Assembly: GCF_000971295.1 (NCBI RefSeq)
Contig: NZ_LANJ01000019.1
Location: forward strand, 1-64,000
Length of the DNA: 64,000 nt
Direction: 5' to 3'
Origin: Devosia epidermidihirudinis
Lineage (GTDB): Bacteria; Pseudomonadota; Alphaproteobacteria; Rhizobiales; Devosiaceae
Positions within the stretch are counted from its first letter, which is position 1, and each line of letters opens with the position of its first letter. Shown here piece by piece: positions 5,520-10,267 of this stretch. Under the pieces are notes generated by a model. That model was not told the origin of the DNA. It searched no databases and worked only from the letters and a program-made list of their open reading frames with translations. Both the position numbers and the translations under genes were made by a program.

Positions 5520-6302
5520 ATGACGAATCACACACATCCAGACCAAGCCAGACCCGTCGCCCTCGTAACCGGTGCCAGCGATCGCATCGGCGCTGCCATT
5601 GCGCGCACGCTCGCGCAGTCTGGCTATGCCGTGGTCATCCATTATCGCTCCGATGCCGATGGCGCGCGCGCCATGTGCGCTGAGATCACGACCGCTGGTG
5701 GTGATTGTGCCATCCTGCAAGCGGACCTTACCGACAGCCCCCAGCGCAACACGCTGATTGCCCGCGCAGGCGAGCCATTCGGCCCGCTGACGGTACTGAT
5801 CAACAACGCCTCGACCTTCGACCCCGATAGCGCCCACGATGTGGATGAAGAGCTCTGGGACCAGCATTTTGCCATCCACGCCAAGGCGCCGGTGTTCCTC
5901 GCCCGCGACTTCGCCGCACAGCTGCCCGCTGGTACCGATGGCAATATCGTCAATATCGTCGACGAGCGCGTGCTGCATTTGTCGCCAGCCTATTTCAGCT
6001 ACACGCTGTCCAAATCCGCCCTCTGGGCCGCCACCCGCACCCTCGCCCAATCGCTGGCACCGACCATCCGCGTCAATGCCATCGGCCCCGGCCCCGTACT
6101 CCCCCACTCCCGCCAGAGCCAGGAAGAGTTCGACCGTTCCGTCGCTGCCCTGCCCTTGCAGCGCAATGCCGGTCCGTCCGCCATCGCTGATGGCGTTCTT
6201 GTCCTGTTGCGGACCCCATCCATGACTGGCCAAATGCTGGCGCTGGATGGCGGCGAGCACCTCGAATATGCGCCCCGTCAGGCGCCGACACCGCGATCAT
6301 GA
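5520..6302 (+). CDS. SDR oxidoreductase, pteridine-reductase-like
   Basis: This 260-residue short-chain dehydrogenase has the cofactor motif TGASDRIG (about 17-24), the NNAS structural motif and an active-site pair in SYTLSKSAL. The Arg in the cofactor motif and the region [21 protein letters not shown] resemble pteridine reductases and FolM-type dihydromonapterin reductases more than classical FabG-like enzymes. NADPH-dependent reduction of a pterin is therefore a reasonable guess. The stop overlaps the uvrC start by four bases (ATGA), so the genes are translationally coupled. From memory an SDR just before uvrC is common in Hyphomicrobiales. Confidence 0.8.
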
Positions 6303-8176
6303 GCGACACACCTCCCGCCAGCGGACACGAGGTCATCCGTGACTTCGTGCGCACCCTGCCCAATGCACCCGGCGTCTATCGCATGCTCGATGCGGAAGGC
6401 GAGGTCATGTATGTGGGCAAGGCCCGCAGCCTCAAATCGCGCGTCACCAATTACACGCGTCCCGATGGGCTTGAGGTGCGCCTGCAGCGCATGATCGCGG
6501 CCACCACGAGCATGGAGTTCGTGGTCACCGAGACCGAGTCCGAAGCGCTGCTGCTCGAAGCCAACATGATCAAGCGGCTCAAGCCGCGCTACAACGTGTT
6601 GCTGCGCGACGACAAGAGCTTCCCTTACATCCTGATTGCCACCGATCACGAAGCGCCCGAGCTGACCAAACATCGGGGCGCGCGTCGTCGGCCGGGCCAC
6701 TATTTCGGCCCCTTCGCCTCGGCAACCGCCGTTGGCCGCACCATTTCGAGCCTGCAGAAGGCCTTCCTGCTGCGCAATTGTTCGGACAGCTTTTATGCTG
6801 CCCGCACACGCCCCTGCCTGCAATTTCAGATCAAGCGCTGCGCCGCCCCCTGCACTCGCGAAATCAGCCTCGAAGGCTATGGCGAGCTGGTCGACGACGC
6901 CCGTCAATTCCTGTCCGGCAAGTCGCAGGGCGTGCGCGATCACCTCCAGCGAGACATGAACGAGGCCGCCGAACAGCTTGATTTTGAACGCGCCGCACTC
7001 ATCCGCGACCGCCTGTCTGCACTTGCGCTGGTCCAGTCGCAGGGCGACGGCACGGCCAAGACCGTGGAAGAGGCCGACGTATTCGCCATCCACCACGAAG
7101 GCGGTCAGTTCTGTGTTCAGGTGTTTTTCTTCCGCGCCTTTCAGAACTGGGGCAATTACCCCTATCGTCCACGCGCCGACGCCACCCTCACAGATGCCGA
7201 GGTGCTGGAAGCATTTATCGGCCAGTTCTATGAAAACCGCACGCCTGCCCGCCTCGTCCTGATCAGCCATGAACTGGCCGAGCCAGACGTGATGGAAGAA
7301 GCCCTCTCCAGCCGCGCCGGTCGCAAAGTCTACATTGAACAGCCCAAGCGAGGCGAAAAGCGCGATCTGGTCAATCACGCGCTCAACAATGCGCGCGAAG
7401 CACTGGGCCGTCAGCTGGCCGAAGGCGCCACCAACCGGACCCTGCTTGAGGGCGTCGCCGAAACCTTCGGCCTCAAGGAAGTGCCGCGCCGCATCGAAAC
7501 CTACGACAACTCGCACATCTCGGGCACCAACATGGTTGGCGCCATGGTGGTAGCGGGCGAGGAAGGCTTTGCCAAAAAGTTCTACCGCACCTTCAACATC
7601 AAATCCGACATCGCCGCCGGCGACGATTTCGGCATGATGCGTGAAGTGCTGACGCGTCGCTTCACCCGTCTCGCCAATGAAAGCGACAACGACGCCGAAG
7701 ACGACAACACAGGCATGCCCGATTGGCCCGACGTCGTCTTCATCGACGGCGGCGCCGGCCAGATGAGCGCGGTGCGCGGCGTCATCGACGAGATGAACCT
7801 GCCCAAGGAAGTGACCTTTATCGGCATCGCCAAGGGTGAGGAACGCGACGCGGGCCGCGAAAAATTCTTCATGGAGGGCCGCGAAGCCTTCATGCTGCCG
7901 CACCGTGATCCCGTGCTGTACTATGTGCAGCGGCTGCGCGACGAGGCCCACCGCTTCGCCATCGGTACGCACCGCGCCAAGCGCAAGAAAGACCAGATCA
8001 AGAATCCGCTCGACGAAATCGAAGGCATCGGCCCGACTCGCAAGCGCGCGTTGTTGCAGCATTTTGGCTCAGCCAAAGCCGTCGGTCGCGCCAGCCTTGT
8101 CGACCTGGGCAGTGTGTCAGGGATTTCGAGCCAGATGGCGCAGTTGATTTACGATCACTTCAATCGCAACGGTTGA
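6299..8176 (+). CDS. uvrC: UvrC, excinuclease ABC subunit C
   Basis: This 625-residue protein is the nuclease of nucleotide excision repair; it cuts DNA on both sides of a lesion with UvrA and UvrB. The order of domains is complete: GIY-YIG nuclease at about 18-95 ([18 protein letters not shown]), UVR UvrB-binding segment near 205-240, RNase-H-like endonuclease at about 370-520 ([21 protein letters not shown]) and C-terminal helix-hairpin-helices ([18 protein letters not shown]). Length is normal. It overlaps the upstream SDR gene by four bases. Downstream lies the attenuator-controlled DAHP synthase, then pgsA. Confidence 0.97.
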
Positions 8177-8242
8177 GGCAAGTATTCGATTGCCCAAAAG
8201 TCGGAGTCGACAGACCCGGTTTCTCGAGCTACATATCATGCC

Positions 8243-8320
8243 ATGATCCGTTCCATCGCCACCGTTTCGTTTTGGTTTAGCTATCCGCTCCCGGCGGAGG
8301 CTACCGCGCGCTTGATCTGA
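8243..8320 (+). CDS. Aromatic-rich leader peptide upstream of DAHP synthase
   Basis: A 25-codon open frame starts at ATG 8243 and ends with TGA at 8318-8320. Codons 10-14 encode Phe-Trp-Phe-Ser-Tyr, so all three aromatic amino acids, the end products of the pathway opened by DAHP synthase, sit within five codons. The frame is followed by mutually exclusive hairpins and a terminator ending 39 bases before the DAHP synthase start. This is the arrangement of a transcription-attenuation leader peptide. A weakness is the lack of a strong ribosome site: only a distant GAG is seen. Confidence 0.7.
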   Translation: MIRSIATVSFWFSYPLPAEATARLI

Positions 8321-8377
8321 TCTCACAAGGATACGACCAAACCCGAAGCCAGCCGCCCCCTACGAGGCGGCTTTTTT
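8285..8377 (+). promoter_or_regulatory. Transcription attenuator with alternative hairpins
   Basis: The terminator is AGCCGCC (8351-8357) paired with GGCGGCT (8366-8372), followed by six T. A competing antiterminator can form between GGCGG-A-GGCT (8293-8302) and AGCC-AG-CCGCC (8347-8357), nine pairs with a small internal loop; it uses up the left arm of the terminator. A third hairpin, CTCC/GGAG or CCGC/GCGG within 8285-8299, would free that arm when the leader is translated fully. A ribosome stalled at the Phe-Trp-Phe-Ser-Tyr codons (8270-8284) would block this third hairpin and favour readthrough. Pairing was done by eye. Confidence 0.7.
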
Positions 8378-8415
8378 GTTGGCCCCCTCGCTCAAAATTC
8401 TCGAGGAGACCACAA

Positions 8416-9489
8416 GTGCTCAAGTCCACCGACGACCTTCGCATCACCGCCATTAAACCGCTGACGACGCCCATCGAGGTCATGCGCCAGCATCCGCGCA
8501 CCGACGCTGCGACCCGCACCGTCATCAGCGCCCGCCACGACTTCCACAACATCCTGACCGGCACCGACGACCGCCTGGCCGTTGTCGTTGGCCCCTGCTC
8601 CATTCACGATCCAGCCGCCGCCGTGGACTATGCCCGCCGCCTGGTTACGCTGCGTGAACGTCTCGGCGATCGCCTTGAGATCATCATGCGCGTCTATTTC
8701 GAAAAGCCCCGCACCACCGTTGGCTGGAAGGGCTTGATCAACGACCCCAATCTCGATGGCAGCTTCGATATCGATCAGGGCCTGCACACCGCGCGCGCGC
8801 TGCTGCTCGACATCAACAATCTCGGCCTGCCTGCCGCCTGCGAATTCCTCGACATGACGACGCCGCAATACATTGCCGACCTCGTCAGCTGGGCCGCCAT
8901 TGGTGCCCGCACCACCGAAAGCCAGATCCACCGCGAACTCGCGTCAGGCCTCTCCTGCCCGGTCGGCTTCAAGAACGGCACCGACGGCAACTTGCAAATC
9001 GCCCTGGACGCCGTGAAATCGGCTGGCCAGCCGCACCATTTCCTCGCCGTCACCAAGGACGGCCGCTCGGCCATTGCGGCAACCACCGGCAATGAAGACT
9101 GCCACGTCATCTTGCGCGGCGGCAAAGTGCCGAACTATGACGCCGCAAGCGTTGATGCCGCTGCCAAAGCCGCCGAAAAGTCCGGCGTTGCGCCGGCCCT
9201 GATGGTCGACGCCAGCCACGCCAACTCATCCAAGAAGCCCGAGAACCAGCCCATCGTTCTGGCTGAAATCGGCGCTCAGCTGGCCGCTGGCGATCGCCGC
9301 ATCATTGGCGTCATGGTCGAATCCAACCTCGTCGCCGGTCGCCAGGATCTGATCCCCGGCAAGGAACTGGTCTATGGCCAGTCGATCACCGATGGCTGCA
9401 TCGATTGGGACACGACTGTCGTAGCGCTCGAGGCCCTGGCTGACTCCGTCACCCAACGCCGCGCCGCAACCAACCAGCAGGTGGCGTAA
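8416..9489 (+). CDS. aroG: 3-deoxy-7-phosphoheptulonate (DAHP) synthase, class I
   Basis: The enzyme condenses phosphoenolpyruvate and erythrose 4-phosphate, the first step of the shikimate pathway to Phe, Tyr and Trp. The 357-residue protein is of AroG/AroF/AroH type. It has the metal-binding VVGPCSIHD at 57-65 (Cys61), the metal His in MVDASHANSSKK, Glu in GVMVESNL and Asp in ITDGCIDWD. GTG at 8416 has GAGGAG upstream. The symbol is by class, since the feedback inhibitor cannot be read from sequence. It sits between uvrC and pgsA, genes that are often neighbours in related genomes, and has its own attenuator leader. A palindromic repeat follows. Confidence 0.93.
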   Translation: MLKSTDDLRITAIKPLTTPIEVMRQHPRTDAATRTVISARHDFHNILTGTDDRLAVVVGPCSIHDPAAAVDYARRLVTLRERLGDRLEIIMRVYFEKPRTTVGWKGLINDPNLDGSFDIDQGLHTARALLLDINNLGLPAACEFLDMTTPQYIADLVSWAAIGARTTESQIHRELASGLSCPVGFKNGTDGNLQIALDAVKSAGQPHHFLAVTKDGRSAIAATTGNEDCHVILRGGKVPNYDAASVDAAAKAAEKSGVAPALMVDASHANSSKKPENQPIVLAEIGAQLAAGDRRIIGVMVESNLVAGRQDLIPGKELVYGQSITDGCIDWDTTVVALEALADSVTQRRAATNQQVA

Positions 9490-9500
9490 ACGCAGCACCG

Positions 9501-9636
9501 CCTCACCTCTCCCCTGAGGGGAGAGGTCGACCCAAAGGGTCGGGTGACGGGTTCAGAGGCTGAGGCAGCCGCAATGGCATAACCAACCTCTGACCCCCTC
9601 ACCTTAGCCCTCTCCCCTCAGGGGAGAGGGGACGAA
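9501..9636. repeat. Palindromic intergenic repeat, inverted dimer
   Basis: Two nearly identical hairpins lie about 100 bases apart: ACCTCTCCCC-TGA-GGGGAGAGGT (9505-9527) and CCCTCTCCCC-TCA-GGGGAGAGGG (9608-9630). The sequence between is itself inverted: GGGTTCAGAGG near 9550 faces CCTCTGACCCC near 9590, and GGGTGA faces TCACC. The whole can fold as one long imperfect cruciform, like the REP/BIME-type intergenic repeats of proteobacteria. It may also stop transcription after aroG. Confidence 0.8.
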
Positions 9637-9700: not shown

Positions 9701-10267
9701 ATGGCCAAGAACCCACTGCTCCTCGTTCCCAACATGATCACCATCGCCCGTATTCTGGCGATCATCCCCATTGTCTGGCTGGTGATGCAGGGCGATCTCG
9801 TGCTGCGGGGCGTGGCACTGGCCATCTACATTGTGGCCGCTGCGAGTGACTGGGTGGATGGCTATCTGGCCCGTGCCTGGAACCAGTATTCCCCGCTCGG
9901 CCGCATGCTGGACCCGATTGCCGACAAACTGCTCGTCGGCATTCTGATCACCGCTTTGGCATGGGACGGCAGCCTTTCTGGTTGGGATATGATCCCGGTC
10001 TGCGCCATCCTGTTCCGTGAGTTCTTCATTTCCGGTCTGCGCGAATTCCTCGGCAACACCAAGGTCGTGCTGCCAGTCAGCCAGCTAGCCAAGTGGAAGA
10101 CCACCATTCAGCTGGTGGCTTTGGCCATCATCCTGCTCGAACGCATCATACCTGGCCTTGGCCTCGTCAGCGACATCGTGCTTTGGGTCGCCGGTATCCT
10201 GACCCTCTGGACGGGCTGGCAATATCTGCGCGCCAGCTGGCCTCATCTTTCCAGCGACTCACCGTGA
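9701..10267 (+). CDS. pgsA: CDP-diacylglycerol-glycerol-3-phosphate 3-phosphatidyltransferase
   Basis: PgsA makes phosphatidylglycerol phosphate in the inner membrane, the committed step to phosphatidylglycerol and cardiolipin. The 188-residue protein has the CDP-alcohol phosphotransferase motif DxxDGxxAR...G...D...D at 50-75, seen as DWVDGYLAR and LGRMLDPIAD. It has several hydrophobic helices. The stop overlaps the moaD start in GTGA. The order pgsA-moaD-moaE is familiar from other Hyphomicrobiales. Confidence 0.95.
   Translation: MAKNPLLLVPNMITIARILAIIPIVWLVMQGDLVLRGVALAIYIVAAASDWVDGYLARAWNQYSPLGRMLDPIADKLLVGILITALAWDGSLSGWDMIPVCAILFREFFISGLREFLGNTKVVLPVSQLAKWKTTIQLVALAIILLERIIPGLGLVSDIVLWVAGILTLWTGWQYLRASWPHLSSDSP

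Follow-up and report, generated by a model that had tools for sequence, protein, structure and literature searches.

The DNA analyzed here is a 64,000-nt stretch of the Devosia epidermidihirudinis genome, referred to below as the window. It contains aroG (8416–9489, forward strand), encoding a class I DAHP synthase of 357 aa (TIGR00034, E-value of 3.6e-157, over its cut-off), with a Shine–Dalgarno sequence, GAGGAG, read at 8403–8408 on the same strand. The upstream neighbor is uvrC (6299–8176) and the downstream neighbor is pgsA (9701–10267). A leader peptide ORF lies between uvrC and aroG, beginning 66 nt after the end of uvrC and running in the same direction. Two near-identical palindromes of 21–24 nt, CCTCTCCCCTGAGGGGAGAGG, resembling REP-type elements, are located between aroG and pgsA (9503–9526 and 9609–9632). 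Among the matches listed, the closest named relatives by aroG belonged to Devosia (Alphaproteobacteria).

An aroG protein match was found in 74 of the 75 genomes of the genus, the window's own counted; genome G068 had none. Beyond the genus, class I aroG was patchy in Alphaproteobacteria, with a full-length match in 7 of 288 other genomes (class draw). The sequence-only reading had taken aroG for the first gene of the shikimate pathway; the enzyme is indeed a class I DAHP synthase, but not the sole entry enzyme, as a class II DAHP synthase was matched as well in 73 of the 75 Devosia genomes. No aromatic leader was found upstream of the class II DAHP synthase gene, trpE or pheA of the window's genome, and the leader at aroG is the sole one among the four loci examined there. 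Since the class II gene of this genome has no such leader, the aroG attenuator would control one of two DAHP synthase isozymes.

The leader ORF (8243–8320, forward strand; stop codon at 8318–8320) encodes MIRSIATVSFWFSYPLPAEATARLI. The 25 codons and the run Phe-Trp-Phe-Ser-Tyr at codons 10–14 (F10 W11 F12 S13 Y14; 8270–8284), both claimed earlier, were read directly in the window from the ATG at 8243. At least four aromatic residues within eight codons were found in 7 of 1038 short ORFs (8–75 codons, both strands, 64 kb), and the aroG leader was the only one of the seven with F, W and Y together, a criterion set post hoc, after the leader had been seen. Across 185 distinct upstream regions, a number that includes paralogs without a leader, 157 contained an eight-codon stretch with four or more aromatics (4.2% of 3700 dinucleotide shuffles) and 138 one with five or more (0.6% of the shuffles).

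Of the 74 genomes of the genus in which aroG was matched, 72 supplied upstream DNA (G048 and G072, with fragments only, were left out); together with named Devosia records, mostly duplicates, it gave a set of 86 loci, 75 of them distinct. In the spacer alignment proposed as a check of the attenuator, the leader frame, the terminator and codons for all of Phe, Tyr and Trp were kept in 75 of the 75 distinct Devosia loci. When codons were tabulated for 59 distinct leaders of Devosia, Trp and the codons immediately before and after it were aromatic in all 59, with synonymous TAT/TAC and TTT/TTC changes among these three codons. The usual peptide has the form ATxSFWYFSYPLPAEAxARLI, while the window is of the SFWFSY type: in 10 of the 59 leaders, the window's included, no Tyr codon separates W from F. 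Loss of a single base 3′ of the aromatic block puts the rest of the leader in another frame in L151 and in L014 (identical to L147), and the GGCGGAGGC RNA motif is retained despite the shift. Because these frame-shifted loci keep the motif, the aromatic part of the leader looks conserved at the codon level, and the C-terminal part at the level of the RNA. A Devosia subgroup (L010, L012, L013 and L015) has a different region 2 without the GCGG core; the leader and terminator remain, and the peptides end in GSRWQPKGRV or GSRWQPEGRV.

Three RNA elements on the forward strand compete for the same bases in the window. Pairing, conservation and minimum free energy (MFE) folding delimit region 2, the antiterminator 5′ arm (GGCGG A GGCT, 8293–8302), within the leader ORF; pairing, covariation analysis and MFE folding delimit region 3, the 3′ arm (8347–8357), which overlaps the 5′ arm of an intrinsic terminator with its T run (regions 3:4, 8351–8377; terminator scan and helix covariation). 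The 9-bp antiterminator of the sequence-only reading was confirmed: GGCGG (8293–8297) pairs with CCGCC (8353–8357) and GGCT (8299–8302) with AGCC (8347–8350), and the helix sits in the MFE fold of 8289–8357. So was the competing terminator at 8351–8372, with a 7-bp stem and Ts at 8372–8377. A possible third hairpin had been placed at 8285–8299; folding gave it a larger extent. When the leader is folded naked, the MFE structure contains this hairpin 1:2 at 8278–8303 with 11 bp (8278–8282 with 8299–8303 and 8284–8289 with 8293–8298); it covers the entire antiterminator strand and would sequester it; its sequence is nearly invariant in most Devosia and thus gives no covariation signal. The antiterminator core is a repeat of part of the terminator 3′ arm. 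Folding energy alone was not significant in single-sequence tests (z of −0.61, −0.12, and −1.21 to 0.90), and one terminator-like site was found in 801 bases vs 0.7 expected from shuffles; the strong evidence is conservation, rather than folding energy or terminator count.

A promoter is predicted immediately upstream of the leader, with a −35 element TCGACA (8207–8212), a 17-nt spacer and a −10 element TACATA (8230–8235) 7 nt before the leader ATG, all on the forward strand. Devosia loci share GACA at 33–36 nt upstream of this ATG. Among 74 distinct Devosia upstreams, 72 have a −10-like box that ends 6–7 nt before the ATG, and in 52 of 85 others the distance is 6–8 nt; these are raw counts of the best-scoring pair within 60 nt, without a shuffle control. 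In several Oxalobacteraceae loci, the −10-like box lies farther upstream. A sigma-70 consensus scan found no promoter at the leader. Shine–Dalgarno-like 4-mers precede 5 of 170 leaders vs 135 of 157 aroG starts (duplicates included; the 157 are loci whose aligned start is ATG, GTG or TTG). As the −10-like box adjoins the leader ATG and no Shine–Dalgarno sequence precedes it, the leader mRNA is probably leaderless, starting at or next to the ATG.

Outside Devosia, 115 loci were collected (114 distinct, 112 with enough upstream DNA). The leader was present in 86 of the 112 testable loci, including named alpha-, beta- and gammaproteobacteria, and the terminator accompanied it in 84; at L186 and L190, where the terminator is absent, the leader calls are doubtful. 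By source, leaders were found in 65 of 65 testable named records (drawn from the best 80 aroG matches, minus 14 Devosia), in 5 of 6 testable loci of the class draw, and in 16 of 41 of the phylum draw, whose 42 loci were hand-picked to spread over families, paralogs included. The 26 loci without a leader (L154 of the class draw and 25 of the phylum draw) showed 42–57% identity over the approximately 100 residues compared; our guess is that many of them are gammaproteobacterial paralogs. Leaders with F, Y and W numbered 51. In a quick protein tree (74 rows), the branching agreed for the most part with the classes, two Caulobacteraceae rows falling on the side of the beta- and gammaproteobacteria; given this mostly class-like tree, horizontal transfer of an aroG–leader cassette is not claimed. 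Accounting for which leaders contain Trp takes at least seven changes on the same tree (73 rows labelled). Rhizobium-type leaders without Trp (L051, L070, L071, L072 and L079) have the GCGG motif in another frame, and in part of them an antiterminator G–C pair is replaced by A–U. The record named Mycobacterium sp. KBS0706 (L017) has an aroG that groups as sister with the Inquilinus gene (support 99), and its leader is closely similar; the record is probably misnamed or contaminated.

Covariation was analyzed in an alignment of 44 leaders (A1), thinned by hand from 70 candidates; those left out were mostly near-duplicates, but also L010, L015, L034 and L080. In the terminator helix, 91.1% of the cells were paired, two-sided changes occurred in 17 cells vs 3.6 in shuffles (0 of 500 as high), and the covariation score was 0.154 vs 0.081 (0 of 500 as high). 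The antiterminator had 76.8% paired cells vs 16.7–52.9% in slid positions, and 4 of 500 shuffles were as high. Cells changed on both sides numbered 9 vs 5.0 in shuffles (19 of 500 as high), while the number of pairs so changed (4 vs 3.1; 170 of 500 as high) and the covariation score (0.065 vs 0.063; 190 of 500 as high) did not stand out. The check had asked whether compensatory pairings are kept. This holds for the terminator helix; the antiterminator core hardly varies, and its covariation is weak for that reason. Consensus folding of A1, which gives one structure only, recovered the terminator and did not choose the antiterminator; it also paired region 2, over 3 bp, with bases downstream. 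A partly conserved GCGC at 8308–8311 of the window (A1 columns 49–52), with one G nearly invariant, lies in many leaders 14 nt downstream from where the region 2 core begins; the consensus fold pairs bases around it with region 2, and it is possibly a second protector.

Matching between regions 2 and 3 was also assessed by permuting partners among leaders, a procedure that ignores relatedness: 794 paired cells were found in 95 distinct leaders vs 751 ± 8 after permutation (0 of 1000 as high), 313 vs 304 ± 2.5 in Devosia alone (36 leaders; 0 of 1000), and 481 vs 461 ± 6.6 in the non-Devosia leaders (59; 3 of 1000). Eleven of 170 loci without exact GCGG/CCGC anchors, five of them Devosia (L010, L012, L013, L015 and L116), were skipped in the permutation, core-geometry and folding-state counts. 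Duplex shuffles at single loci were weak, with p ≤ 0.05 in 65 of 170 loci, a median of 0.09 and a value of 0.09 for the window.

Alternative-structure folding, suggested earlier as a check, was run on 142 distinct leaders with exact anchors. The stalled state was folded from the RNA just ahead of the ribosome to the end of region 3, the GCGG core always being left free; the antiterminator core was in the MFE structure of 128 of the 142 leaders transcribed to this point. The terminator was in the MFE structure of 139 leaders with region 2 covered and of 136 naked leaders. At full length with region 2 free, the MFE structure was the terminator in 119 and the antiterminator in 19, the terminator being favored by a median of 4.4 kcal/mol; therefore, antitermination would have to be co-transcriptional. 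The trpL leader of E. coli K-12, a proven attenuator, gave the same four folding results in a like computation.

Taken together, leader-frame conservation, covariation of the terminator and the alternative folds in silico support the trp/phe-type attenuator logic of the sequence-only reading, and we put the probability that a ribosome-mediated transcription attenuator of the classical mechanism controls aroG at about 0.88. Transcription would begin at the leader ATG or immediately beside it, with the ribosome loading on the leaderless RNA. When charged tRNA-Phe or tRNA-Trp (in most relatives, tRNA-Tyr as well) is scarce, the ribosome would stall at codons 10–12 and open hairpin 1:2, freeing region 2; this would pair with region 3 before region 4 is made, so that the terminator is pre-empted and aroG is read through. 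With charged tRNAs at hand, the ribosome would cover region 2 during the synthesis of regions 3 and 4, the terminator would form, and transcription would stop near 8377. If the leader is not translated, hairpin 1:2 and the terminator should both form, and transcription would stop too. A point against the model is the position of region 2 within the ORF, where 24 nt separate its core from the stop codon in 60 of 95 leaders; masking would therefore depend on a ribosome in transit, not on one parked at the stop codon.

Which amino acids are sensed is a separate matter. The earlier suggestion that the leader would respond to each aromatic end product needs a qualification, Tyr being the doubtful one in the window strain. 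The leading edge of a ribosome lies approximately 10 nt beyond its A-site codon, and the antiterminator core usually begins 9–12 nt 3′ of the last aromatic codon (9 nt in 38 of 95 leaders, 12 nt in another 27, and 18 nt in a further 12). A stall at F10, W11 or F12 would bring the edge to about 8282, 8285 or 8288, leaving region 2 (from 8293) free. Y14 (8282–8284) is the only Tyr codon of the window leader, and a stall there would put the edge at about 8294, on the antiterminator strand. For this reason, Tyr sensing is doubtful in the window strain, where Trp and Phe sensing fits the geometry better; it is plausible in other Devosia. It could be that only one or two of the aromatic amino acids are sensed by the attenuator and that the remaining aromatic codons are passengers or relics; we consider this a serious contender, if somewhat short of even odds. 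Trp is absent from 35 of the 86 non-Devosia leaders, which have F and Y only; in Devosia, however, F, Y and W are all kept in each of the 75 distinct leaders. A precedent is the AroR leader of aroF in Corynebacterium glutamicum, reportedly described by Neshat et al. in 2014. In the passages cited, AroR has Phe-Tyr-Phe codons and responds to Phe limitation, yet Tyr availability is without effect (PMC11802643, a review; PMC4046766).

Other explanations of the locus fare worse. The leader peptide or a trans-acting sRNA might be the functional product, with attenuation of aroG secondary, as is reported for rnTrpL/peTrpL of S. meliloti; termination would yield a leaderless RNA approximately 135 nt long, comparable to rnTrpL as portrayed in the cited part of the source (PMC7298713). 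We find this unlikely. The C-terminal peptide is not conserved: L014/L147 and L151 end in a PLRRRLTRA-type sequence with the RNA motif intact, and the region 2 core stands in other frames in other lineages (frame 0 in 82, frame 2 in 10 and frame 1 in 3 of 95 leaders) while the motif stays. Even less probable is a plain uvrC terminator, or a constitutive one, with aroG expressed from its own promoter downstream. The proximity of the co-directional uvrC and the chance expectation of a single terminator-like site would agree with it; however, uvrC was matched (E ≤ 1e-5) at 30 of the 86 Devosia loci and at none of the 115 others (flanks of up to approximately 1500 nt in the latter), the terminator lies only 38–46 nt from aroG in 59 distinct Devosia loci, and the promoter-like pair keeps a fixed distance from the leader ATG. 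This reading was rejected, as the hairpin tracks aroG across loci, not uvrC. A metabolite-binding riboswitch or T-box before aroG is most improbable of all: alternative terminator/antiterminator folding is common to these classes, but the conserved in-frame aromatic codons would lack an explanation, and an Rfam 15 scan of the window (8100–8500) and 20 of the loci gave no family at the gathering threshold, all window matches lying below it, so that identity with an Rfam riboswitch or leader was rejected.

A search of the open-licence literature, with most subscription journals outside its scope, found no paper on a proteobacterial aroG leader family, and the broad family seems undescribed, with a classical mechanism and a known kind of target. 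The earlier remark that no example was described in this group thus stands for the proteobacterial family, in which neither a paper nor an Rfam match was found, but DAHP synthase attenuators have been described outside Proteobacteria. With E. coli trpL, the aroG leader shares the terminator, antiterminator and 1:2 logic and the computed folding states; trpL differs in sensing one amino acid (Trp-Trp), in having region 2 after the stop codon, and in the gene controlled. The trpL of S. meliloti is a Trp leader before trpE(G). It is an alphaproteobacterial attenuator whose transcript, in the cited part of the source, starts at the leader ATG (PMC7298713). The start predicted for the Devosia leader is likewise leaderless; the window leader, in contrast, has FWFSY and precedes aroG, and trpE of the same genome has no such leader. 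AroR is also a leader-peptide attenuator with Phe/Tyr codons before one of two DAHP synthase genes, the attenuated aroF standing beside a second DAHP synthase according to the passage cited (PMC4046766). AroR differs in being actinobacterial and, as far as the cited descriptions go, in having no Trp codon mentioned, whereas Devosia leaders combine Phe, Trp and Tyr; the two were compared by description, not by RNA homology. The uORFC-13-1 motif before aroF combines a uORF with a Phe codon, a terminator and a DAHP synthase gene, but has a possible ribosome-binding site in Acholeplasma; the part of the source cited gives it for Acholeplasma and unassigned environmental sequences only, with a function only proposed (PMC8632094). 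Attenuators predicted before Vibrio aroA-Ialpha-Y/tyrA appear in the portion cited of a 2005 table (PMC1173090).

We hold at even odds a broader proposition: that the aroG leaders form an RNA family of ancient origin, hitherto undescribed, in which a leaderless attenuator has remained with class I aroG across alpha-, beta- and xanthomonad-type gammaproteobacteria, one leader integrates any aromatic shortage, the codon menu (Phe + Tyr or Phe + Tyr + Trp) has changed at least seven times on the quick tree, and each leader records the shortage that induces the DAHP synthase of its lineage. Control of entry into the shikimate pathway in Proteobacteria is usually told through TyrR and TrpR of E. 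coli. In the survey passages cited, these regulators are conserved in many gammaproteobacterial groups and absent from other classes (PMC5343134). The aroG leader family would offer an alternative that acts in cis, is complete in itself and requires no regulatory protein. Its sequence would provide a readable prediction of amino-acid specificity that can be tested by codon swaps, and the family would be a ready target for annotation and metabolic engineering. For Tyr sensing, the subclade of the window, in which no Tyr codon separates W from F, serves as a natural experiment. Very probably, a shortage of aromatic amino acids switches on aroG in this Devosia through the leader and its competing hairpins, and the same switch precedes aroG in many other bacteria.
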